This document shows, piece by piece, positions 1 through 64,000 of a stretch of DNA of 64,000 nt (within the stretch, counting starts at the first letter, position 1; each line of letters begins with the position of its first letter). The notes below the pieces were generated by a model, which was not told the origin of the DNA, made no database searches, and saw nothing but the letters and a program-made list of their open reading frames with translations. The position numbers and the translations under genes were made by a program. Origin of the DNA: a virus; the IMG/VR virus record IMGVR_UViG_3300033145_000692, positions 36,908 through 100,907 of that record; one strand, 5' to 3'.

Positions 1-811
1 ACCGGAAGGGACTCTCGCCGCTGCTTCTGAATTCATATTCTGGTGCATGTTTCTTGATATCCTTTTTGATCTCAGCATCACTCAGGTAACCTGCTGCCCA
101 TGCCATCAGACGAGGTGGGAGCCCATTGATACCAGCGTTCAACATCACCGCTGCCATCTTACTCAACTGCGCTTTGGTTTTCTTATACCGAAACTTTCTG
201 GTGACAGGTACCCCACGGCGGGTCTTTTTTCCAGCCTTCTTCTCCTTGAACTTGATGATCTTATCAGCGGCGGCAACTTGCTTGTCTTCTGGTAGCTGAC
301 AGATCGCTTCGATATTCACTGCCGACAACAAGCCAAGTGCTGCCTTTATCTGCACCTTCTCAGGAAGCTTCAATAGACGAAGACGGATATGAACCCATCT
401 GGTTGGTCTCTTCAACTCCTTTGAAGCTGAACGAAGTGGTACCCCCTCTGGATAGAGTGCCTCGACTGCCTTTGCTTCCTCAAGCATGTTGAGGTCTTTA
501 CGCTCCAGATTCTCAGTGAGGTTGAGCAGTCTCGCCTGGTGCTCATCCAAACCTTTGAAGACAATCGCTGGAATAGTTTCCCACCTCAACAAGGACTCTA
601 CCGCTTTGAATCGCCGGTGCCCAGCCAACAATCTGAATCGCCCTTCCCACGGTTGGACGGCTATGGGGAACTGCAAACCGATCTCTTTGATTGAGTCTGC
701 CAGTTCAATAATTGACTGAATCGTGAAAGCACCTCGACAGTTGAAACGCTCATCATATAGGATATCCTCAAGAGGAATCTCATAGGCATCATACTGTTCA
801 AGGCGCTTCAT
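1..811 (-). CDS. ParB/Spo0J-like protein (3' end outside window)
   Basis: The reading frame starts at ATG 811-809 and stays open to position 1, so only the first 270 residues are visible. Residues 60-75 contain the ParB box with LLAGHRRFKAV, and 98-108 the second box TENLERKDLN; both are hallmarks of the ParB/RepB N-terminal nuclease/CTPase fold. A predicted helical DNA-binding region follows. Known members bind DNA sites for plasmid partition or regulate transcription; in phages they often act as partition or nuclease proteins. The start lies 2 bases after the stop of the upstream gene, so the two are probably co-translated. A second ParB-like gene lies at 9816-10697. The family is fairly certain; the role in this phage is not. 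Confidence 0.8.
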   Translation of the reverse strand, partial: MKRLEQYDAYEIPLEDILYDERFNCRGAFTIQSIIELADSIKEIGLQFPIAVQPWEGRFRLLAGHRRFKAVESLLRWETIPAIVFKGLDEHQARLLNLTENLERKDLNMLEEAKAVEALYPEGVPLRSASKELKRPTRWVHIRLRLLKLPEKVQIKAALGLLSAVNIEAICQLPEDKQVAAADKIIKFKEKKAGKKTRRGVPVTRKFRYKKTKAQLSKMAAVMLNAGINGLPPRLMAWAAGYLSDAEIKKDIKKHAPEYEFRSSGESPFR

Positions 812-813
812 GT

Positions 814-1437
814 CTACGTCCACATATACTGTCTCACGGCAGCCAGACGTTGGAGCATCTCATCAGACTGATCCTCCATATTCTGTTCCAACTCACTGGC
901 TTCCTTTGTCAACGCGCGGTACTTGTCTTCCTGTCCATCTGTTTCAAAATGGAAGACCATCTGTCGGAGATTATTTTGAGGAGGATCAAGTTCCCTATGG
1001 TCGATCAAAGGTGAACACTCGCGGATGAGTTTCCAGATATTGTTGGTGGCTTCCTGGTACTCTTTCTGGTAGGTGATGTTCCACCAGTCCCAGATTTCCT
1101 TCATCTCATCCATGACATACTTGCCACCAATCTTCTTGGGACCTTCCTCACCAAACCAGAGGACATGTCCAGGTGAGCATTCATTCTCAATGAACTGCCC
1201 AAGAATCTCCATTGACATGTGCAGCAGAAGTTCCCGGCGATCACACCAAGAATGACAAAGCGTTCGTGGCTTGACCGTGGAGTATCTGTTCCAACAGAAA
1301 TTCTTTACCCACTGCCATATCGGACCAAGTCTGTAATCGTATGGAATCCGATAGTACACATCCATGACCTTGTCTTCTAAGGTCTCAGTCATCTGTCTAA
1401 CCTTGGTCTTAATCACGTCAATCTCCAAAAAAATCAT
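814..1437 (-). CDS. conserved phage hypothetical protein, 207 aa
   Basis: I do not recognise a function. The protein is rich in Trp, Cys and charged residues in its first half (segment YDYRLGPIWQWVKNFCWNRY near residues 35-55) and ends in a probable coiled coil. ATG 1437 is chosen because GGAG sits 7 bases upstream. An almost identical copy of that ribosome-binding segment lies 18 bases inside the gene in front of a GTG (about 1419), so translation could begin at either. The gene is immediately upstream of the ParB-like gene, and downstream of a tRNA and a PQ-loop gene. Confidence 0.7.
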   Translation of the reverse strand: MIFLEIDVIKTKVRQMTETLEDKVMDVYYRIPYDYRLGPIWQWVKNFCWNRYSTVKPRTLCHSWCDRRELLLHMSMEILGQFIENECSPGHVLWFGEEGPKKIGGKYVMDEMKEIWDWWNITYQKEYQEATNNIWKLIRECSPLIDHRELDPPQNNLRQMVFHFETDGQEDKYRALTKEASELEQNMEDQSDEMLQRLAAVRQYMWT

Positions 1438-9815: not shown

Positions 9816-10697
9816 TCAATCTCCTTTCACCCACCGTTTGCGGGCTTTCTTACGGGCGGCATCTTCCTGTTTCTTCTGACTCTCGGGGTCAAGATGAAGA
9901 ACCCATTCCAATGCAGCTTTCCAACCTTCCATGGCGTTACTGTAATCACCTATGGTCAATAGGAGAGGTGCTTCAACACCTTTTTCAAACTCTTCCCTGA
10001 CATCCTTCAATGACCTCAAGTATGGTTGGACTTGAAAATCCCTCGTGAAGAAATCCTCAAGTTTCCCCTGCTTCACTGCCTCTTTGAATTGCTTGACTAC
10101 ACCTGCCGCTAAGACTTTGAACTCCATCTCACCCATCAGCTTCGCTTCATCAATGAAATTGACCCTCAACCTGGGAGGTATCTTCGATAACATGTAGGCG
10201 TTACCCAGGTTAATCTCACCACGGTCGACTGCTCTCTGTGTTGATGTGTCAAGTCTGAGGAGTCCGAGTTGTTGACTTACCCAACCTGGTTTCTTGTTGA
10301 CCAAGCTAGCCAATTCTATCAGTGTGATGTCAGGTCTGACCTTCTGAATCCGCCTGATCTGATTGGCGAATTCAATTGGTTTGGTTTCTGGTCGGATGGC
10401 ATTTGCTTGAATCTGTAACGCAAGTACATCGTCATCCGACACATGGTGTTTGATGATACAGGGGACAGATGGTAGTCCGACCTCCCTGGCACATGTTGTC
10501 CGCCACAGCCCATCAATGACCTCGAAATGATCCGACTGCCGTTGACTTGGTCTGACTGATATCGAGTTGAGAAACCCTATCTCTTTGATGGACTCAAACA
10601 GTTCAAGGTATTCCACTGATTCAGTTGCGACCGGTCTGAGCAGCACCTGTGGATCAACAAGCTGATCGGTAGGTATTTCATGGAACTGGTCATTCAT
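9816..10697 (-). CDS. ParB-like protein
   Basis: The 293-residue protein has a ParB-type N-terminal domain: DHFEVIDGLWRTTCAREVGL (residues 55-75) replaces the usual G-H-R-R box, followed by ALQIQANAIRPETKPIEFA. An HTH follows (LIELASLVNKKPGWVSQQLG). The C-terminal half is helical and ends in a Lys/Arg-rich tail. It is transcribed leftward from the control region; its start lies 22 bases from one arm of the inverted repeat. It may bind repeats in that region or those at 63.7 kb as a partition, replication-control or regulatory protein. It is only distantly related to the ParB-like protein at 1-811. Confidence 0.8.
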   Translation of the reverse strand: MNDQFHEIPTDQLVDPQVLLRPVATESVEYLELFESIKEIGFLNSISVRPSQRQSDHFEVIDGLWRTTCAREVGLPSVPCIIKHHVSDDDVLALQIQANAIRPETKPIEFANQIRRIQKVRPDITLIELASLVNKKPGWVSQQLGLLRLDTSTQRAVDRGEINLGNAYMLSKIPPRLRVNFIDEAKLMGEMEFKVLAAGVVKQFKEAVKQGKLEDFFTRDFQVQPYLRSLKDVREEFEKGVEAPLLLTIGDYSNAMEGWKAALEWVLHLDPESQKKQEDAARKKARKRWVKGD

Positions 10698-11080: not shown

Positions 11081-13816
11081 ATGTCGACCAAGTTCATCAC
11101 AGAAGCTGTCGTTGCCTTCCTCACAGCCAGGCGCGGCGAGCACCCAGGGCAAGACCTGCTCGATCACTACCTGAAATATGGTACCGCCATGGAGACACAG
11201 GTCAATGTCGCTGCCGGTCCCCGGGGAGAACCAGTCGATGGCAAGCGTGCCACCTGGACAGATGGGATCAACGAGTGGTGGAACATCAGGATACCTAAGA
11301 ACTCCTATGATGATCCGAAGTTCAAGGATTACCGACTCTCGTGGCCACTGGAGGAGCACGCCGAGGGTATCGGCACCACGGGTTGGGATTGGAAGGAACG
11401 TTGCAGCCGTTGGCTTGGCTTCGACTTCGATGCTCTTACTGGGCACGCCGCCGGTGTTGGTATCGACGAGGATGCCCTTGTGGATGTCCAGAGGGCTGCT
11501 GAGGCTCTCCCATTCGTTGAGGTTCGTCAGTCGACTGGTGGGAAAGGAATCCATCTCTACGTCTACGTGGACGCTATCCCGACCTCTAACCACACCGAAC
11601 ACGCCGCTCTCGCGAGATGTGTCCTCGGGATGATGTCTTCTGAGACCGGCTTCGACTTCGCCTCGCAGATCGACTGCTGTGGTGGTGTGATGTGGATTTG
11701 GCACAAGAAGCTGACCTTGGAGAATCAAGGACTCTCGTTGCTCAAGTCGGCTGAGAAGACCTTGACTCTCGATGACCTCCCCTCCAACTGGATGGATCAC
11801 GTTGAAGTTGTACGTGGTAAAAGAGCTAAGGTCCGAATCGGTGGTATCAAAGATGAGGACATTGATCCGTTTGATCTGTTGGCTTCAGCCCGTAGAATGA
11901 CCCCTCTCGATGACATCCACAAAGAAATCATTGACGAACTTGCACGCTCAGGCTTCTCTACAGTCTGGGTCCCTGATCACCATCTGTTGCAGACGCACAC
12001 CTGTGCCCTCAAAGAGTTGATGGAAGATGATAGCAAGGCTGAAGAGTTCAAAATCCGTGGCTATTATGACACGACCTCTGAGGGAACCGATCGGGCAAGT
12101 CCCAATTGTTTTATGTTCCCACTACCAAGTGGCGCATTCAAAGTCTATCGGTTCTCCCAAGGGGTATCCGAATCTCCCACCTGGCAACAGGATGGCGAGG
12201 GGTGGACTACATGCTTCTACAACCACGACCCTGATCTGAAGACAGCGTCTCGTGCCCTTGGTGGGGCTGAGCTTCCTGATAACAAGGGGTTTCAGTTTGA
12301 GTACGCTGAGAGTGCGATTAAAGTCGCCAAGTCCCTCGGTCAAGATGTTGTGCTTGACAAGAAGTTTCTCAGTCGTGAGACGATACTTCGACCTAACAAA
12401 GATGGACGCCTGGTGGCTCGCATCAAAGCTGACAAAGGTGACCCGAAACCGGATTCAAGTTGGGTTGCTGGACGTGGTGGTTGGTGGGAGAAAGTCTTCG
12501 GCATCAAGACGGAACCCAATGTTGACTCCACTGGTACTGCCGAATTTGATGATCGTCTACGAACGTTGGTGACCTCTCAGTGTGAGTCGGCTGGATGGTA
12601 CGTTCAAGCTACCAATGGCTTATGGCAAAGGCGTCCGCAGAGCGAGTGTAAAAACTGGCTCCAAAGCAAGGGCATCGCGAAACCTGATGCCGATATAGTT
12701 CTTGGTAACTGTATCGACAAGCCATGGGAATTAGTGAGTATGCCTTTTAAGAACGAGTACCCGGGTGACCGCCAGTGGAACTTCAACACGCCAAGATTCG
12801 TCTACGAACCTGCTGATCTTGGAGACAGCGAAGTGCCAGTACATCCACACTGGAACAAAGTTCTTCAACACTGCTTCTGTGACCTTGACGCCGAACTCAA
12901 AGAACTTACCTGGGCTCAAGAGGCTAACATCCGAAACGGGTATCAGTTTGGTTTAGCATGGATCGCTTGTTGCTTCCGTGACCCATTTGAACCCCTGCCA
13001 TTCCTATTCTTCTTTGGGAATCAGAACAGTGGGAAGTCGATTCTCCATGAAGCTCTATCCACGTTGGTCACAGGGGGTGTTGTCAGTGCTGACCGTGCCC
13101 TTACGAACAACAACCAGTTCAATGGTGAGTTGGCAAATGGAGTCCTGGCGATTGTGGAGGAAAAGAACATCGCTGGAAGCTCTACGGCGTACAATCGAAT
13201 CAAGGAGTGGGTGACCAGTAAGACATTATGGATTCGTAAAATGCGAATGGACGCCTACCCACAACCCAACACTTTGCATTTCATGATGATGGCAAACGAA
13301 CAGGAAGCTTGTCCGGTCGTTGGAGGTGACACTCGAATCATGGTGATTGAAGTTCCTGACCTCCTCCCAGACCAGGAAATACCTAAGATTGAACTTCTAA
13401 AACTGCTGAAGACTGAGGCTCCTCACTTCATGCGAACCCTAATGAACGTTGAGCTTCCACAGGTCCATGGTCGTCTACGTCTTCCGGTTGTTGACACCTA
13501 CAAGCGTCAGCAGTCACAGGATATGAGTCGATCCCTCTTGGAGACATTCATTGGCGATAACTGTCACTATGCTCCGGGTGAAAAGATTCTATTTAGTGAA
13601 TTCCATGAGAAGTTCATCCGTTCTCTTGAGAACGAAGAGCGGTTCGAGTGGAGTAAAACCAAAGTAACCCGTGGTCTGCCTTCAGACCATCAGAGTGGTG
13701 CTTCTGGTGGTAGCAATCAGCGACATGTGTCAAACATCTCGTGGAAAGCTCCGAAGAACACCGACGCTACCCCGTTAGTTTGCATCAATGGCCGTTTGAA
13801 GTTGAGGGAGAATTAA
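11081..13816 (+). CDS. primase-helicase (AEP primase + D5/SF3 helicase)
   Basis: The 911-residue protein joins two replication activities. The N-terminal part has an archaeo-eukaryotic-type primase signature: LGFDFDA (Asp115, Asp117) and STGGKGIHLYVY (His158). The C-terminal part has a D5/SF3 ATPase: Walker A FGNQNSGKS near residues 645-653, a VLAIVEEKN Walker B-like strand and the motif C segment MMMANEQEACPV. It would unwind DNA and make primers at the phage fork. The ATG has GGAG 6 bases upstream. It is the first gene of the rightward operon driven from the control region. The DNA polymerase is not in this window. Confidence 0.88.
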   Translation: MSTKFITEAVVAFLTARRGEHPGQDLLDHYLKYGTAMETQVNVAAGPRGEPVDGKRATWTDGINEWWNIRIPKNSYDDPKFKDYRLSWPLEEHAEGIGTTGWDWKERCSRWLGFDFDALTGHAAGVGIDEDALVDVQRAAEALPFVEVRQSTGGKGIHLYVYVDAIPTSNHTEHAALARCVLGMMSSETGFDFASQIDCCGGVMWIWHKKLTLENQGLSLLKSAEKTLTLDDLPSNWMDHVEVVRGKRAKVRIGGIKDEDIDPFDLLASARRMTPLDDIHKEIIDELARSGFSTVWVPDHHLLQTHTCALKELMEDDSKAEEFKIRGYYDTTSEGTDRASPNCFMFPLPSGAFKVYRFSQGVSESPTWQQDGEGWTTCFYNHDPDLKTASRALGGAELPDNKGFQFEYAESAIKVAKSLGQDVVLDKKFLSRETILRPNKDGRLVARIKADKGDPKPDSSWVAGRGGWWEKVFGIKTEPNVDSTGTAEFDDRLRTLVTSQCESAGWYVQATNGLWQRRPQSECKNWLQSKGIAKPDADIVLGNCIDKPWELVSMPFKNEYPGDRQWNFNTPRFVYEPADLGDSEVPVHPHWNKVLQHCFCDLDAELKELTWAQEANIRNGYQFGLAWIACCFRDPFEPLPFLFFFGNQNSGKSILHEALSTLVTGGVVSADRALTNNNQFNGELANGVLAIVEEKNIAGSSTAYNRIKEWVTSKTLWIRKMRMDAYPQPNTLHFMMMANEQEACPVVGGDTRIMVIEVPDLLPDQEIPKIELLKLLKTEAPHFMRTLMNVELPQVHGRLRLPVVDTYKRQQSQDMSRSLLETFIGDNCHYAPGEKILFSEFHEKFIRSLENEERFEWSKTKVTRGLPSDHQSGASGGSNQRHVSNISWKAPKNTDATPLVCINGRLKLREN

Positions 13817-40895: not shown

Positions 40896-43800
40896 CTATT
40901 GACCTACCCAGGAAAACTTACTCTCCTTGGATGCTTCTACAGTTTCAACAATGGTAACAGTTTTCGTTGCACCTTTTTTAGTCTCGGCAACACTGACTGT
41001 CAACGCATTACCGGCGACCGATGTCGCAGGTGTGAAGGTGGCAGCATGTCCAGCAATTGACGTTGCTGGGGTGATAGTTGCCGTGTGTCCTTCTGTTGAT
41101 GTCGCTGGTGTAACAGTAGCCTCGTTACCAGGAGTCGGTGTAGCTGGTGTAAAAGTGGCATCGTTACCAGGAGTCGGTGTCGCTGGTGTGAAAGTGGCAG
41201 TATTCCCAGGAGTCTCTTCAGCAATAACAGGTGTACCGCCAAGTAGGAGTGTGGAATCGGCAGTCATAAGAGCAACATCAGTTGCAGCATTAGTACCTTG
41301 GAATTCCACAACCCAGTCGGTCCCTGGACCAGCGCCACCTGTAACAGCAACAGTGTCGATGTTGCTAAGCAACTCCAATGCTGTCTTAATATCGGCGGCT
41401 ACATCATCATACGTTATCGCTCCGGTTGGACCTTGACCATCGAAGGTCAATGTGAACGAACCACTGTCGGAGTCATTAGGAATGTTGATTGTCTGTGTCT
41501 CGTTGACAGCAGCCACACCCTTAACAGTTTCAGTGATAGTCACAGTCTTACCGGAAAGAAGTGTACCATCCCCACCCATCTGAACCACTCCGGTATCAGC
41601 GAGGGCACCTTGGAATTCACAAGCCCATTCAGGAGCCGTACCAGTAACTGACATGTCACTGTCACCGATGTTAGTCAAAGCGATTAGGGAAGCCTGTACT
41701 ACACCAGCGGAGGCGTTATATGCAATCGTGCTGGTTGTCTGACCATTATAGGTCAGTGTGAAAGTTCCTCCGGTTACTGTTGCTGGAATCGAGACGGTTT
41801 GAATCTCGTTGTTGCCACCACCACCTGACTGAGTCTCAATGACAGTCACATCGGAGCCAGTTAAAAGGGCTCCATCGGCGGTCATCGCATCAATATCAGC
41901 ACCAGCCAGAAGAGTGGCAAATGTAACAACCCAATCGGTATCCGGACCTGGTCCACCAGAGACAACAACATCCCCGGCACCAATGTTTGATAGAGCTTCC
42001 AGAAGACTATCAAGCGTGCCGAAAGTGTCATCAAACTGAATAGCTCCGGTTGTCTGACCAGCATAGGTCAACGTGAATGAGCCACCTGTCGTATCACTAG
42101 GGATACTGACTGTTTGAACTTCATCAACCGCAACAACACCCGGGACAGTTTCAGTGATAGTCACAGTACGACCAGACAACAGAACACCACTTCCTGTGAT
42201 CGCAGAGATAGGCTGTTGCTTCAAATTGACGCCAAACTCAACTTCCCAAGCAGGGGCAGTACCAGTGACAGTCAAATCGCCAACAGTAATGCCCGCCAGA
42301 GCTTCCAAAGCGTCCTTGACATCCGTAGTCGAAGCGTCAAAAGCGATGGTGCCAGTGGTATTACCATCCCATGTCAACGTGTATGTTCCACCGGTCGCAT
42401 CGGAATCAATTGTGACACTTTGAACTTCATTTGTTCCAGCAGTTCCCGTGACTTCAGAGAGGTCGGTGAAACCAAGAAGTGCATCAAAAGTAAGTGTGTA
42501 AGGACCACCAGCAGCACCAGTGACAACAACATCAGCAGGAGCAATGTTGGACAAAGCCTCCAAAGCTGCCTGAACTGTTGCAGCATCAGCATCATAGGCA
42601 ATCATCGCGGTAGTCTGAGCATCATAGGTGATGTCAAAAGTATCACCAGCAACTGTACTACCCAATGTGATTGTCTGAATTTCGTCTGTCCCAGCATCGC
42701 CAGTGACTTCCGACACATCCGTATTTTCCAGGAGTTGATCAAAGGTTAGCGTCCAAGGACCTCCAGCAGAACCTGTGACAAGGATATCACCAGCGGTGAC
42801 ATTTGACAAACCTTCCAAAGCGGTTTGAACTGTAGCAGCGGCAGCATCATAAGCAATGTCGTCTGTCGTTTGACCATCATAGGTGACATAAAATGAATCA
42901 CCCGCTATAGTCGAAGCCAATGTGATTGTCTGGATTTCATCAGTTCCACCAACCGCCGTAACCTCAGTCTGAGCAGCATATCCAAGAAGCTCACCAAACG
43001 TCAAAGTGTACGGACCACCAGCAGAACCCGTGACAACACAATCATCGGTGTCAATGCCAGAGAAGACTTCCAAAGCCGTCTGGACTGTCCCTGCGGCAGC
43101 ATCATAAGGAATGTCAGTCGTTGTCTCACCACCCCAAGTGATAGCGAACGTATCACCAATGATAGTTCCACTGAGTGTCAGTGTTTGTACTTCATGGGTA
43201 CCCGCAATGGCGGTTACTTGGGCAAGGTCAGTAAAACCAAGAGTTGCATCAAAAGAAAGTGTGTAAGGACCCCCAGCAGACCCTGATACAACAACATCAC
43301 CAGCGGTTATACCACCCAAAACTTCCAAAGCCGCTTCAACTGTTGCAGCAGAAGCATCATAAGGAATAGGAGTGGTCGTAGCAGCAGAATAGGTGATGTC
43401 AAAGGTATCACCAACTTGTGTGTTGGAAAGTGTCAGTGTTTGAACTTCGTCTCTCCCAGCGTCACCAGTGACTTCCGACACATTCGTATTGGCCAAGAGT
43501 TGATCGAAGGTTAGTGTCCAAGGACCACCGGCACCACCAGTAACAATGATGTCACCAGCGGTTACATTCGACAGAGCTACCAAAGCTGCCTGAACTGTAG
43601 CAGCGACGGCATCAAGGGGAATGTCGGTCGTTGTCTGACCATCATAGGTGATATAGAACACATCACCAGCTTGTGTGCTTGTGAGTGCCACAGTCTGGAT
43701 TTCATCAGTACCACCAACACCTGTGATGGCTCCCATGTCTGTGAGATCGAGATTGCCAGCGAAGGTTACAACTACTGGCGTACCAGGGGCGGGACCACCA

Positions 43801-58600: not shown

Positions 58601-59179
58601 ATGAAGGACATCTATTTCATTGCCGACACTCATCTTGGTCATGAGGCGATCCTGCACCACATGCCAAAACGTGGGGAAGAATTCCGCGACATTGACGAGA
58701 TGGATGCTGGGATCATTGACTCAATCAACTATTATGTCAAGAAGGATGATATCCTATTTCACCTGGGCGACTTCTGCTGGCGGGCGGGACAAGCCGGACA
58801 CTATCGGCAGCGGTTGAACGTCAAAGAGATTCACGTGGCAAGAGGTAACCATGATGCCCCCTCGCTGCGGAAGCACGTGTCCTCACTCGATTGGATGATC
58901 TTCAGGAAGTTCAACTCGAACTTCAGATCAAATCTCCACTTTCACATGCAGCATTTCGCGATGGTATCATGGAGAAAGCAGCAGCATGGGGGGTATGGAC
59001 TATATGGACACAGCCACGGGCTCTTTGAAGACAAGTTGAACACATTTCAACCAGGTCGGAGAGCCATGGACGTTGGTATCGACCACGCTTTCACTCTCAC
59101 CGGAGAGTTCAAACCACTTCACTTAGAGGAATGTCTCTTTTTTATGCCCGACATCATTGAAGGGCGACCAGACCGATGA
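58601..59179 (+). CDS. calcineurin-like metallophosphoesterase
   Basis: The 192-residue product has all motifs in order: IADTHLGH, LFHLGDFCW, VARGNHDAP and LYGHSHG. It closely follows small phage phosphoesterases that act on nucleotides or RNA ends. It is shorter than the 435-residue HTH-linked phosphoesterase and lacks that HTH. A sigma70-type promoter directly precedes it. Confidence 0.85.
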   Translation: MKDIYFIADTHLGHEAILHHMPKRGEEFRDIDEMDAGIIDSINYYVKKDDILFHLGDFCWRAGQAGHYRQRLNVKEIHVARGNHDAPSLRKHVSSLDWMIFRKFNSNFRSNLHFHMQHFAMVSWRKQQHGGYGLYGHSHGLFEDKLNTFQPGRRAMDVGIDHAFTLTGEFKPLHLEECLFFMPDIIEGRPDR

Positions 59180-59793
59180 AACCTATCCCGCAGTTGACTA
59201 AGAGTGACCTTACCCGTTTCTGGGTTAAGGTTGACATGAAAGGTCCTGATGAATGTTGGAAATGGCTTGCGTACAGATGTAAGGATGGTTATGGTCGATT
59301 TGATCTCTGTCAGTCGCCATTTCGAGCACATCGTATCTCTTTTGCCATAGCAAATGGTGACCCTGGTGAGTTGAATGTCAACCACACTTGTGATAACCCA
59401 AGATGTGTCAACCCAGGACATCTCTGGAAAGGCACGATGCAAGACGGCATGACAGACAAGGTCATAAAAAAACGCCAGTCAAGTACGTTAGGTGAACATC
59501 AGATAAGAGAAATCCTTTTGTCAACTGAAACTTGTCAGATTCTCGCGGACAGGCTTGGCGTCAAACATCAAAACATATCGGCGATCAGAAGGGGAGAAAG
59601 ATGGAAACACTTAGGTGGTGGGCGACAGTCATGGGCGTCAAAAACCGGGTCCAGAGGTGTCACGTTCCACAAGGGAGCAGGGAGGTATCGAGCCGATGTT
59701 ACAATCAAAAAGAACCGATACTACCTTGGACTCTTCGATACCATTGAAGAAGCCACCACAGCAATCGCCACCAAGAAGAAGGAACTCAGATGA
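59176..59793 (+). CDS. HNH endonuclease with HTH and AP2 end
   Basis: The 205-residue product has the HNH core LNVNHTCDNPRCVNPGHLWK, an HTH (LADRLGVKHQNISAIRRG) and an AP2-like C-terminus (GVTFHKGAGRYRADVTIKKN). It is a typical free-standing homing endonuclease of phages. It overlaps the phosphoesterase gene (ATGA). Confidence 0.88.
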   Translation: MKPIPQLTKSDLTRFWVKVDMKGPDECWKWLAYRCKDGYGRFDLCQSPFRAHRISFAIANGDPGELNVNHTCDNPRCVNPGHLWKGTMQDGMTDKVIKKRQSSTLGEHQIREILLSTETCQILADRLGVKHQNISAIRRGERWKHLGGGRQSWASKTGSRGVTFHKGAGRYRADVTIKKNRYYLGLFDTIEEATTAIATKKKELR

Positions 59794-60008
59794 TTCTACA
59801 ATGTCCAGAATGCAACAGCCGTAATGTCACGACAGTGTGGACCAAGCATACCTTTCCGTATGGAGCGGTGAACCCAGTGAACTTGACGGCGAAGGTACCC
59901 ATCAGACGATGTGGATGCTGCAAGGAGTCATGGCTCGACTACATCTCTGAGATAATCATGGACCGAGTCATCAAGGACTTCGAGAAAGACTACACGGACG
60001 AACTATGA
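59790..60008 (+). CDS. YgiT/MqsA-type zinc-finger protein, 72 aa
   Basis: The pattern CPECNSRNV ... FPYG ... KVPIRRCGCCKESWLD matches the YgiT-type zinc finger known from MqsA antitoxins, without the following HTH. It might regulate expression or bind a partner. Toxin partners are not visible. Confidence 0.65.
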   Translation: MILQCPECNSRNVTTVWTKHTFPYGAVNPVNLTAKVPIRRCGCCKESWLDYISEIIMDRVIKDFEKDYTDEL

Positions 60009-60196
60009 GAAACAGTCAGAATCCATCGGATACCAGCGGGCTTGTTGTTGGTGCTCTTGTATTGCCGGGCGTCTGTGCCATCATCTATTTGCTGGCGGCA
60101 TTGTGCCATCACTTGCCGGCGTTGATGTTCGTTCTCTTCTGGTGGTTCTGGGGCTATTTCACGTTCCGTTTTGTGAAATGGGTGATAACATCATGA
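60005..60196 (+). CDS. two-span membrane protein, 63 aa
   Basis: Two hydrophobic stretches (GLVVGALVLPGVCAIIYLLA and LMFVLFWWFWGYF) fill most of the product. Overlapping starts tie it to the next membrane gene. The pair might act together, but nothing identifies them as holins. Confidence 0.6.
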   Translation: MRNSQNPSDTSGLVVGALVLPGVCAIIYLLAALCHHLPALMFVLFWWFWGYFTFRFVKWVITS

Positions 60197-60441
60197 GATC
60201 CATACTGGAATTTCTACTGGAATTTCTACTGGAATTTCTACATCAGGTACTGTCCCCGCTCATCCTGTTATTTGTCCTCTTCACGATCACTGTGTTATCC
60301 GCACTTGGGATACTGGTCATGGCGAATTTTGCCCCAGTGGGATTTACACTCATTGGTAGCGGGCTCTTGGTCTTCGGAACAATTGTCTTAATCCGATTTC
60401 TGACAAAACTGTGGATGCGATATGAAGATCAAAGAAACTGA
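60193..60441 (+). CDS. membrane protein, 82 aa, with DNA triplication
   Basis: ATG 60193 overlaps the previous stop. The start encodes FLLEFLLEFL through three tandem copies of the 12-bp unit CTGGAATTTCTA. Two membrane helices follow (ILLFVLFTITVLSALGILVM; FTLIGSGLLVFGTIVLIRFL). Confidence 0.6.
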   Translation: MRSILEFLLEFLLEFLHQVLSPLILLFVLFTITVLSALGILVMANFAPVGFTLIGSGLLVFGTIVLIRFLTKLWMRYEDQRN

Positions 60442-61072
60442 CACAATGAAAATACCAATGAAAATACCAATGTTGGACAGAGTCGACCTCGAACGCCTCA
60501 TGGCGTCTGTTGACCAAAGTGAGGATTGCTGGTTCTGGGAGGGGGAACGCAATGGTGATTACCAACCGGTGTTAGAGATAACTGGCGTCAAGTACCACCC
60601 TGGTGACCTACTGTATGTGGATTTGTGTGGACCATTGGAAGATGGCGAGAAGGTAACAAACAAATGCTTCACGGTAGGCTGCATCAACCCAAAACACAAG
60701 GAGGGTGTATGGAGGGCACAGCATGGAAAACTGAGGAAGGGAGATGTTATACGGATTCTTGACTCCGGCAAAACAGTCCGTGAGTTGGCTGAAGAGTTCG
60801 ACGTGTGCCTGGCAACGATCTACAACATCCGGAGTGGCAAGGTCTGGAAAGACATCACTCCACAACACAAGCGAAAACGACCGGTGCCTAAGCCACCACG
60901 ACAGAAGCATATCCGCACTGCGTTCCCGGGGATCACATTTGACCTAGGCACCGGGAAGTACATCGCTAGCTATTACAGGAAGTACATCGGTGAATACGAC
61001 TCACGCGAAGAAGCGGTGGTGATGCGGGTAAAGCACATTGAGGATGGATTCCAATATGGATCTCAGTTTTGA
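60422..61072 (+). CDS. HNH-like endonuclease with altered core
   Basis: The 216-residue product has VTNKCFTVGCINPKHKEGV in the HNH position, with Asn where the first His normally stands. It also has an HTH (RELAEEFDVCLATIYNIRSG) and an AP2 end (GITFDLGTGKYIASYYRKYI). It may have lost nuclease activity. Its first codons contain ATGAAAATACCA twice. It overlaps the membrane gene by 20 bases. Confidence 0.75.
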   Translation: MKIKETDTMKIPMKIPMLDRVDLERLMASVDQSEDCWFWEGERNGDYQPVLEITGVKYHPGDLLYVDLCGPLEDGEKVTNKCFTVGCINPKHKEGVWRAQHGKLRKGDVIRILDSGKTVRELAEEFDVCLATIYNIRSGKVWKDITPQHKRKRPVPKPPRQKHIRTAFPGITFDLGTGKYIASYYRKYIGEYDSREEAVVMRVKHIEDGFQYGSQF

Positions 61073-61742
61073 TTTCATGATGTACCACAAGCCAATACCC
61101 GAACTGACTGAAGAAACCATCAAAAGATTCTGGAGCCACGTTGACATTCGTGGACCGGATGACTGCTGGGAGTATGATACCCTTTTTGCTAATGGTTATG
61201 GAAGATTCTACTTAACAACCAATAATGCGTTCAAGGCTAATCGAATCTCTTATGCAATAGCAAATGGGGACCCGGGAAACCTCCTTGTCTGCCACACATG
61301 TGATACCCCGCGATGTGTGAACCCATCACATCTCTGGGTAGGAACGGACCAGGATAACTGTGACGACAAGACAGACAAGGGGAGGCAGTCGAGAGGTACA
61401 ACTCAACCTTCCTCAAAACTCACAGAAGAACAAGTCAAAGAAATCCTCGCATCGAACGAAACCCTGAAAGTGCTGTCCGCGAGATACAATGTTACTATCG
61501 CCATCATATCACGAATAAGGACAAACAAAGATTGGAAACACATTGAAGGTAAAAGGGGTACACCAGTGAGATCGTCCACAGGTTTCAAAGGAGTCACCCA
61601 ACGTTCTAGTGGTAGGTATATGGCAAAATTCACCTACCAGTACAAGGAACACTACGTCGGAATCTTCGCAACGATACCCGAAGCCACTAAGGCTATCGTT
61701 GCGAAGAAAGCCGAACTCGGCATTGCCTCGACACCAAGCTAG
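61056..61742 (+). CDS. HNH endonuclease with HTH and AP2 end
   Basis: The core LLVCHTCDTPRCVNPSHLWV and the segment KPIPELTEETIKRFWSHVD are close to the gene at 59176 (KPIPQLTKSDLTRFWVKVD). HTH (LSARYNVTIAIISRIRTNKD) and AP2 (GFKGVTQRSSGRYMAKFTYQ) domains follow. The start could be 61056 or 61077. It ends head-on with the SprT-like gene, overlapping by 4 bases. Confidence 0.85.
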   Translation: MDLSFDFMMYHKPIPELTEETIKRFWSHVDIRGPDDCWEYDTLFANGYGRFYLTTNNAFKANRISYAIANGDPGNLLVCHTCDTPRCVNPSHLWVGTDQDNCDDKTDKGRQSRGTTQPSSKLTEEQVKEILASNETLKVLSARYNVTIAIISRIRTNKDWKHIEGKRGTPVRSSTGFKGVTQRSSGRYMAKFTYQYKEHYVGIFATIPEATKAIVAKKAELGIASTPS

Positions 61743-62347
61743 GCGGCGTCAGCGATGATCGCTTCCTCTTCAAGCATATCCTCGCTCTTCATTTTGGTCC
61801 CACACGGACATGTCGGAACTCCAATGTTAATCCACTTCTGACTGGCACGAACCATATACCCGCATTCCGGGCATTCGATCTTCTTCATCCGAGTGCTCTG
61901 AGGTGGCTTCTCCGTCATAGTCAGTGAAGCGTGCGGGTACGGACCTAGCCGGTCAACGTGATCCTGAAGCTTCTCCTTTAGGGCTTCGCCGACAATGGTC
62001 TCGGTCATCTTACCCTCTAGCCCGAGTGTGGTAGCAACCGTGCGGAACGCGCCACGATGTCCACAGTCACATCCAACGGCTACATGCACCAACTCATGGA
62101 CGAGGATGCCCACCACCACAACCGGGTTGTCCCGCATCGGGGTGATGAACACCTCGAAGTGGTCGTCCTCACTCCTGCCTGATGGCCAGCACTCCCCTAG
62201 AACTTGTCTTTTCCCGGGACGCCCACCCCGGCTGGGGAATCCACAGGTCAACCGAATGTTGCCCGGAAGGGCAGCGTCCGCTACCTCGAACTCGGGTCGG
62301 AGGAGATCGGTCATCGCATTGAGCCAAGCTTCGCGGGTGTCATACAT
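61739..62347 (-). CDS. SprT-like metalloprotein with zinc ribbon
   Basis: The 202-residue product has ILVHELVHVAVGCDCGHRGA (His84, Glu85, His88 and a likely third ligand His97). A C-terminal ribbon follows (ECPECGYMV ... CPCG). ATG 62347 has GGGA 7 bases upstream; upstream ATGs lie inside repeats and the promoter. SprT-type enzymes cut proteins crosslinked to DNA, which might be useful in replication. Confidence 0.78.
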   Translation of the reverse strand: MYDTREAWLNAMTDLLRPEFEVADAALPGNIRLTCGFPSRGGRPGKRQVLGECWPSGRSEDDHFEVFITPMRDNPVVVVGILVHELVHVAVGCDCGHRGAFRTVATTLGLEGKMTETIVGEALKEKLQDHVDRLGPYPHASLTMTEKPPQSTRMKKIECPECGYMVRASQKWINIGVPTCPCGTKMKSEDMLEEEAIIADAA

Positions 62348-62370
62348 TGTGGGTCCCTGGTGAGATGCAT

Positions 62371-62406
62371 GTAAGGTGTGTAAGGTGTGTGTAAGGTGTG
62401 TGTAAA
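62371..62406. repeat. tandem GTAAGGTGTGT repeats
   Basis: AAGGTGTGT recurs three times with a period of 9-12 bases in the leader of the SprT-like gene, downstream of its promoter. Confidence 0.8.
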
Positions 62407-62417
62407 CGTCTACTTCA

Positions 62418-62445
62418 ATCATATCATGTTTCATGGGAATGTCAA
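62418..62445 (-). promoter_or_regulatory. sigma70-type promoter
   Basis: On the minus strand TTGACA (62445-62440) and TATGAT (62423-62418) are 16 bases apart. The SprT-like ATG follows 70 bases on, after the tandem repeats. Confidence 0.7.
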
Positions 62446-62958
62446 GGGCTTCATTCAAAATTCTGAAAAAAATAATGGAGAAAGACCTATCCGACACTGG
62501 TGGGTCCGCTACCGGGCGGATTGGCGTCCTGGCGACTGGCGAAATGGCGTCCAGTAGATGGTTTGTGGTAGGTCGTGGGTGTGAGAAGGGACCTTTCAGT
62601 AGATGATTTATTGAGTAGAAATGCCCGATATCAAATGAAAGTCAGTGGTTATATCAAAAAAACCTCAAGTAAGGGATGGTCCCCGAGCCATATCCCCTAT
62701 TATAGTATATTTTTTTCATTTTTTATATACTACAATATAGATATAGTCCCTCTTTACTCACTTATTTGAATCTCGTCATAAAGTCTTTGGCACCATCTGG
62801 TTGTAAGAAATGATGTTTTGTGATAAGAGTACTTTCATCTCAGATTGCTCCCTTGACTGACCTACCCATGGCTGAATTGCCCAGGAAACATAGGGCGAAA
62901 CGTTGATCCCATCTCAGACCACATCAGAGCCGGTTACCAACTTGACCGCGTCCCACAC

Positions 62959-63054
62959 TGCCCGGAATACTGTGCCGCGTCATTATGGACATGCCCACGG
63001 GCCCATCCCAACGCTATGACACTCCGACATTGCCCGGAATACTGTGCCGCGTCA
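62959..63054. repeat. 24-bp perfect direct repeat pair
   Basis: The word beginning TGCCCGGAATACTGTGCC and ending GCGTCA occurs at 62959-62982 and again at 63031-63054, 72 bases apart. Confidence 0.95.
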
Positions 63055-63641
63055 GTACCCCATACGAAATTCAAAACCAGTGTCGAAAGGGCAGGGAGAA
63101 CGCGGCGGGGGGAGGGGTAGGTCAACACCCCCCGATTTGACCCCTCCCTTTGGGGTATACAGCAGGTGCCTACCATGGTACCCCTCTCTCGGGGTATCTA
63201 TCACTCCACACATGGGGTATGTACGAGTACCCTCTCTTGGGTGGGTTCCCATAGCAGTTATTATCGGACCCACTCCGATGGGTGGTACCCATCTACCTGG
63301 GTACCAACGATCGTCTCCCACTATTGGGTGGGATGAGACCACCACTCACCCAATCGGGGGTCTCCCTCGACCGTGGTGTCTGCACTACCTATCAGAGAGG
63401 GAGTGATCCGATTGACAACAAGTGGCAAGTGGCCAGTAGGGTGTGCGCCACCACAGTTTGGCGTGATAAACGTAAATTGTGGCGAAGTCACCTAACCGCG
63501 CGCGGCTAACCGTGCTATTGTGCGACGTAACCCGTTTGACAGTAATGAGTTACGCTTATGACAAGTGTCATAATTTTCTGAACTTACTGCGCCATCATAT
63601 TGACTACCTATGTACAATCGTATCGTTCGTTACAAGTGGCG

Positions 63642-63760
63642 ACCCACCACCCACCACCCACCACCCACCACCCACCACCCACCACCTACCACCCACCACC
63701 TACCACCCACCACCTACGACCCACCACCTACCACCCACCACCTACCACCCACCACCTACC
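63642..63760. repeat. 7-bp repeat array CCCACCA/CCTACCA
   Basis: About 17 consecutive copies of CCCACCA, with CCTACCA variants that alternate in the second half. The strand bias (C/A only) could favour single-stranded or unusual DNA structure. Confidence 0.95.
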
Positions 63761-63775
63761 GGTATCCGGTATCCC

Positions 63776-63880
63776 ACTATCGAGGGGCACACTATCGGGT
63801 GTCACACTATCAGGTGTCACACCATCGGGTACCCAACTATCAGGTGTCACACCATCAGGTGTCACACCATCGGGTGGGTC
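63776..63880. repeat. seven 15-bp iterons
   Basis: Seven head-to-tail units match AC(C/T)ATC(A/G)GGTGTCAC. Copies at 63806 and 63836 are identical, and 63791 and 63851 each differ from them by one base. Even spacing is typical of iterons bound by replication or partition proteins. Confidence 0.92.
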
Positions 63881-64000
63881 TGCTACCCCGAAGGTGGTAG
63901 ATTACAAAATTGTGCGCCTCCCCACCTATTGGAGGGACCACCTTGATCCACCTTGATCTATCCACTCCAATGGGTGTACTGCCCAACACCACCCGAAGGT

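Follow-up and report, generated by a model that had tools for sequence, protein, structure and literature searches.

On balance, we favor reading the repeat-filled right end of virus record G000 as an internal, conserved cis-acting maintenance or control locus that holds the phage's own Xer/lox-type resolution site, in phages with circular maps that probably infect planctomycetes. Such a contig end is easily taken for a terminus, and its recognition as a conserved internal repeat region explains why contigs of this kind break there. The window analyzed is the right 64 kb (G000:36908-100907) of the 100,907-base record, which stops inside repeats, and the region studied is its right contig end. 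The first-pass annotation had pointed to an exceptional gene-free stretch starting at 62498. Nowhere else in the 100.9-kb contig is the gap between genes as large, and the stretch is slightly longer than reported, about 1.65 kb (62348-64000); the ORFs listed within it are low-complexity readings of the repeats, with no credible gene among them. For the flanking gene, ATG 62347 is the most likely start, not the upstream GTG 62497, since its relatives align from ATG 62347 and a strong sigma-70-like promoter is found at 62445-62418 on the minus strand. An Rfam scan returned nothing, and a search of named-phage DNA gave no match. Directly left of the flanking gene lies a cluster of HNH endonuclease genes (window 59176-61742), and HNH PHROGs are matched up to five times by A4 proteins. 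The features of the region are as follows.

61739-62347, minus strand: left-flanking gene (PHROG 6361) with a HELVH metal-binding motif and C-terminal CxxC pairs; syntenic anchor in G001, G007 and G006
62418-62445, minus strand: promoter-like site of the flanking gene, TTGACA-16-TATGAT with extended -10, a consensus match only
62698-62747, unstranded: AT-rich island with an imperfect hairpin, 88% AT
62951-62985, plus strand: 35-nt direct repeat, copy 1
63023-63057, plus strand: 35-nt direct repeat, copy 2, whose CGCGTCA end is the part resembling the relatives
63080-63094, plus strand: conserved box GTGTCGAAAGGGCAG, one per genome in three relatives
63244-63271, plus strand: lox/dif-like site GGTTCCCATA-GCAGTTAT-TATCGGACCC, with 8 of 10 arm positions complementary
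63276-63313, unstranded: 16-nt inverted repeat with TGGTACCCA/TGGGTACCA cores
63493-63503, plus strand: conserved TAACCGCGCGC element (alignment with relatives)
63642-63760, plus strand: heptad array, 17 copies of ACCCACC/ACCTACC, in a CACCNNN register common to G001 and G007
63773-63877, plus strand: seven 15-bp iterons of type CACACYATCRGGTGT

The repeat elements listed in the first-pass annotation are real, but it had missed the conserved box, the recombination-site-like palindrome and the XerC-like recombinase. The AT-rich hairpin (62703-62732; 88% AT) outscores 196 of 200 shuffled versions when folded as single-stranded DNA (z -2.4). What had been described as a 24-bp repeat pair (62959, 63031) is in fact the pair of 35-nt copies, which are 91% identical; an exact 27-mer of this pair was found in no viral contig. 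The reported field of GGGTACC palindromes corresponds to a true excess (the window has 19 occurrences where 4.9 are expected, and 5 of the 19 fall in this region), although only the inner GGTACC is palindromic. Furthermore, the 7-bp repeat, given as about 17 copies, amounts to 17.0 copies, and the seven iterons have the number and length described, but lie 3 bp to the left of the position given previously (63776-63880).

Terminase searches yielded 71 related viral loci. The flanking protein alone, used as a query, found none, and a four-row alignment used as a query found 73 loci. Three relatives have the flanking gene: G001 (106 kb), G007 (52 kb) and G006 (114 kb). The first two also contain a counterpart of the region, which G006 lacks. 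In three metagenome contigs with incomplete ends, G000, G001 and G007, alignment revealed a common order: AT-rich island, GTGTCGAWAGGGCAG box, 28-bp palindrome, TAACCGCGCGC and CACCNNN heptad array. The island (88, 84 and 72% AT in the three genomes, 88% being that of G000) lies upstream of the box, at 382 bp in G000, 343 bp in G007 and 397 bp in G001. The GTGTCGAWAGGGCAG box has a single exact match per genome, each genome pair scores above all 200 dinucleotide shuffles in its alignment, and a search found it in no other IMG/VR contig; among the 73 flanking-gene loci, both the box and TAACCGCGCGC are limited to the same three genomes. The palindrome follows the start of the box after 164 bp in G000 and G007 and after 199 bp in G001. 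The heptad units differ, being ACCCACC/ACCTACC in G000, CACCGGA/CACCAGA in G001 and ACACACC in G007, yet their CACCNNN register, strand and place are kept, and 3 of 20 related records (G000, G001 and G007) show the pattern, all at the same locus. Iteron lengths also vary among the relatives (15, 28 and 28-42 bp). The first-pass annotation had staked its reading on the repeats being conserved in close relatives, and the layout and the heptad period are indeed conserved there.

The divergence of the units raises the question of whether the arrays arose neutrally, by slippage in noncoding DNA free of constraint, with only the short conserved elements mattering, a reading to which we give somewhat less than an even chance. 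Consistent with it, repeat units differ between relatives and are spread among small genes in G001, and several contigs end in arrays, as expected for collapsed variable repeats. By contrast, period, CACC register, strand and locus are identical in three phages, and no period-7 array of at least 5 copies was found in 1.43 Mb of other viral loci. The arrays may be partly neutral expansions.

The first-pass annotation had also considered that the region might be a genome end, and this is refuted by the relatives. Collinearity of G000 with G001 extends to either side of the region and includes the recombinase and the two genes adjoining it; G001 runs on beyond the region with plus-strand genes, and G007 likewise continues with genes. 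Both contig ends of G001 lie in the same CACCRGA/CCGGGAG repeats, and the left end of G000 truncates a recombinase gene whose G001 counterpart lies inside the contig. The locus is thus internal. That the G000 contig stops here is the one observation in line with an assembly artefact or with a physical end, be it a terminal repeat, a cos site or another packaging end, and we consider either very improbable: besides the continuation of the collinear contigs and the position of the left end within a gene, the two G000 contig ends have no terminal repeat in common, direct or inverted, and three independent contigs would have had to acquire the identical layout by artefact. Neither heptads nor palindromes were found at the ends of contigs G002-G005 and G008. 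Since G001 continues past the region and both of its ends fall in one repeat family, the simplest reading of these sequences is a circular map, with assemblies breaking in repeats. Compared with G001, G000 would lack about 15 kb, the counterpart of roughly 102-106 kb plus 1-13 kb. Another repeat-caused contig break is seen in G007, whose end consists of 9.9 perfect tandem copies of an 11-bp unit (GGCGACCAGCA; L083:8360-8468).

The palindrome consists of two inverted arms of roughly 10 bp around an 8-bp asymmetric spacer. All 10 arm positions are complementary in G001 (GTGTCCGATA-GCCTATGT-TATCGGACAC) and in G007 (GGTTCGCATA-GCTTACAT-TATGCGAACC); arm sequences differ between genomes but remain complementary, bar the two mismatches in G000. 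In each of the three genomes, the syntenic 28-mer is the most palindromic ATA-N8-TAT 28-mer of the whole contig, which is strong but not independent evidence because the pattern was defined after inspection of the alignment. Since the G000 arms are degenerate and the palindrome strand shows no hairpin folding, a two-arm recombinase (protein-binding) site fits better than an RNA or DNA hairpin. Comparison with published dif criteria gave a mixed picture. About 16 of the 28 nt of dif lie in the palindrome (PMC2731167), and the three sites have 18, 24 and 22 palindromic nt, where 1.0% of all G000 28-mers reach 16. More than four complementary pairs are expected between positions 7-12 and 17-22 (Kono et al., PMC3025954), a number exceeded by G001 only (5 of 6, compared with 4 in G007 and 3 in G000). 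Most dif sites have a GC content below that of their genome (PMC2731167), whereas the three sites have 50, 50 and 46% GC versus about 49% for the whole of G000. We therefore label the palindrome, as a sequence-based candidate, lox/dif-like and not dif.

A plausible partner for this site is encoded by the same phages. G001 contains an intact 291-aa Xer-family tyrosine recombinase (12857-13732), which matches E. coli XerD (1a0p) with an E-value of 1e-49, shows full-length homology to XerC/XerD and, as aligned with the host Xer proteins, has the catalytic R-K-H-R-H-Y set. It scores 286 bits against the XerC model TIGR02224 over the full model length and 275 bits against the XerD model. Both scores are under the curated equivalog cut-offs (335 and 330, respectively), indicating a Xer-like protein and not a chromosomal XerC or XerD proper; host XerC and XerD score above their respective cut-offs. 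At its left end, G000 encodes on the minus strand the N-terminal 132 residues of a tyrosine recombinase (Phage_int_SAM_1, E-value 1e-20) whose gene is cut by the contig end, and this N-terminus is 47% identical to the G001 protein. Of the three contigs, the two longest show the recombinase, whose gene is some 16 kb away from the site; G007 is a 52-kb fragment and lacks the recombinase. No Xer gene was found in the other relatives. Moreover, G006 has the flanking gene and lacks both the repeat region and a PF00589 recombinase, which is consistent with, although not proof of, linked loss of the two. Serine-recombinase-like genes, read from translations, occur beside the locus in G001 (L079:8547-9242) and in tandem in G006 (L081:10012-11839); without the repeat region and the Xer gene, G006 may use a serine resolvase instead.

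In the resolution-site reading that we favor on comparative evidence from three metagenome contigs, the phage XerC-type recombinase, most like host XerC, would bind the 28-bp lox/dif-like site, and an exchange between two copies of the site would reduce multimers or genomes with terminal redundancy to single circles. Around it, the AT-rich island and the box, together with the heptad and iteron arrays, would probably serve replication initiation or its control. Phage P1 Cre/loxP is a precedent for a phage that keeps its genome monomeric, acting in the monomerization of the plasmid prophage (PMC2409434), which is the role proposed here. In both cases a single phage encodes a tyrosine recombinase and has a palindromic site whose 8-bp spacer is asymmetric. 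However, the recombinase studied here is XerC-like, not Cre, its gene is distant from the site, and the putative site has arms of only about 10 bp, imperfect in G000, within a box/heptad region. Single-Xer systems with one 28-bp site are also established, namely, XerS, XerH and archaeal XerA (PMC2731167, PMC2958812). Like XerS/difSL, XerH/difH and XerA/dif, the phage system would combine one Xer-family protein with a 28-bp palindrome between genes that is unique in each genome; unlike them, it is phage-carried, GC is not reduced in the site, and bacterial dif is matched weakly in G000 and G001. Rather tentatively, as a reading less likely than not, we propose a single-recombinase Xer system in which a XerC captured from Planctomycetota acts, without a partner recombinase, on a symmetric site specific to the phage; the site would be embedded in an origin region that has a heptad array and evolves fast, site arms and recombinase having co-evolved within the group. 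If true, such a system would give access to Xer recombination for a phylum without a known dif site.

Several observations suggest the host. The nearest kin of the recombinase that we found are the XerC proteins of two Planctomycetota MAGs (53 and 49-51% identity), the XerD proteins of the same MAGs being at 42 and 39-41%. These two MAGs also carry the related terminase and structural module, on contigs of 444 and 291 kb, and slices of one of them contain proteins that, read by eye, we take to be typical of planctomycetes. Together, these comparisons make a planctomycete bacterium the likely host. Little is known of phages that infect Planctomycetota, and here the phage recombinase, being close to host XerC, and the candidate site form a directly testable system. 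A tyrosine integrase is encoded near the start of a planctomycete MAG contig (G020:C1:6358-7395, L229) that also has a related terminase module; by eye it resembles a second, unrelated integrase of G001 (G001:22268-22750, L162), and by this likeness members of the phage group may be integrated prophages. A candidate planctomycete host dif, the dif-like palindrome GCATAACGGTTATTATGCTAA in a MAG (G021:C94:154408-154428), is a good-looking pattern match but was rejected, as it was not found in 39 relatives.

The palindrome might alternatively be an attachment site or a mimic of host dif, used with host XerC/XerD for integration into the chromosome. Indeed, some phages are known to integrate at dif (PMC2731167), no part of the tested sequence matches the E. 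coli dif arms better than the G007 site (16 of 22), and related terminase modules reside within planctomycete chromosome contigs. Nevertheless, we regard this as unlikely, given that the phage has its own Xer and G001 a separate integrase as well; moreover, no planctomycete dif was identified for comparison, just as published dif prediction failed for Planctomycetota (PMC3025954).

A phage-encoded resolution site leaves room for other functions of the region, and the first-pass annotation had proposed an origin, given that iterons and AT-rich DNA of an iteron-type origin are both present. As a full alternative, the region would be a replication origin, with the AT-rich island as the melting segment and the box, 35-nt repeats or iterons as targets of an initiator; the palindrome would be only an operator or an initiator dyad. 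We find this reading credible but somewhat short of even. An AT-rich island does lie at a conserved place in three relatives, 343-397 bp from the strongly conserved box, and the intergenic position is divergent. The GC-skew check suggested by the first-pass annotation was not decisive: the cumulative minimum of G001, at about 104 kb, adjoins the locus, but the minima of G000 and G007 are 9-12 kb off, that of G000 at a switch of gene direction. Furthermore, the region has no DnaA-box cluster, the polymerase and primase genes are far off, and an origin leaves the XerC-like gene and the asymmetric-spacer palindrome unexplained. Iteron-type plasmid origins resemble the phage region in having direct repeats near an AT-rich island, but differ from it in their adjacent Rep gene, which was found among none of the neighbors scanned (about 15 kb of G000 being missing), in their DnaA boxes and in iteron length, which in the phages varies among relatives. 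The AT-rich island and box could plausibly have an origin function, as a second function compatible with the favored resolution-site reading.

A centromere, the third function put forward initially, is not supported. The window does encode two ParB-like proteins, as had been claimed, and both Pfam and PHROGs confirm them:

2-823, minus strand: ParB-like protein 1, a putative array binder
9816-10697, minus strand: ParB-like protein 2, a putative array binder

Both are of the ParB_N/HTH_ParB kind and would provide the ParB-type component of ParABS. However, a ParA-family ATPase was found in none of eight related records, the same search being positive in 14 of 14 control genomes, which makes a ParABS centromere unlikely. 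Nor did Pfam scans detect a ribbon-helix-helix protein. This bears on a more specific proposal, that the heptad array is a parS centromere resembling the omega-type one of pSM19035, to which a ribbon-helix-helix or ParB-like protein of the phage would bind. The parS of pSM19035 consists of 7-10 consecutive 7-bp repeats of WATCACW (PMC9499535), and the 17 contiguous direct repeats look alike, also lying in a promoter-bearing intergenic region; the period of 7 and CACC are kept while the units differ, and ParB-like proteins are encoded. Yet the motif is different, neither ParA nor a ribbon-helix-helix ParB was detected (with about 15 kb of G000 missing), and the phage ParB-like proteins are of the HTH_ParB type that normally binds palindromic parS. 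We consider such a centromere improbable.

Elsewhere, several gene contents stand out. Two diverged 255-bp tandem repeats (window 42496-43038) lie inside a 1191-aa gene adjoining the structural genes. Sulfotransferase-like genes, unusual for a phage, occur three in tandem at L003:13602-15186 (PHROG 3347 in 3 members). Finally, a 1464-aa protein (L002:14627-18500) is probably a ribonucleotide reductase and may carry an intein with a LAGLIDADG domain, these families having been seen in the A3 scan as a whole and not assigned gene by gene.
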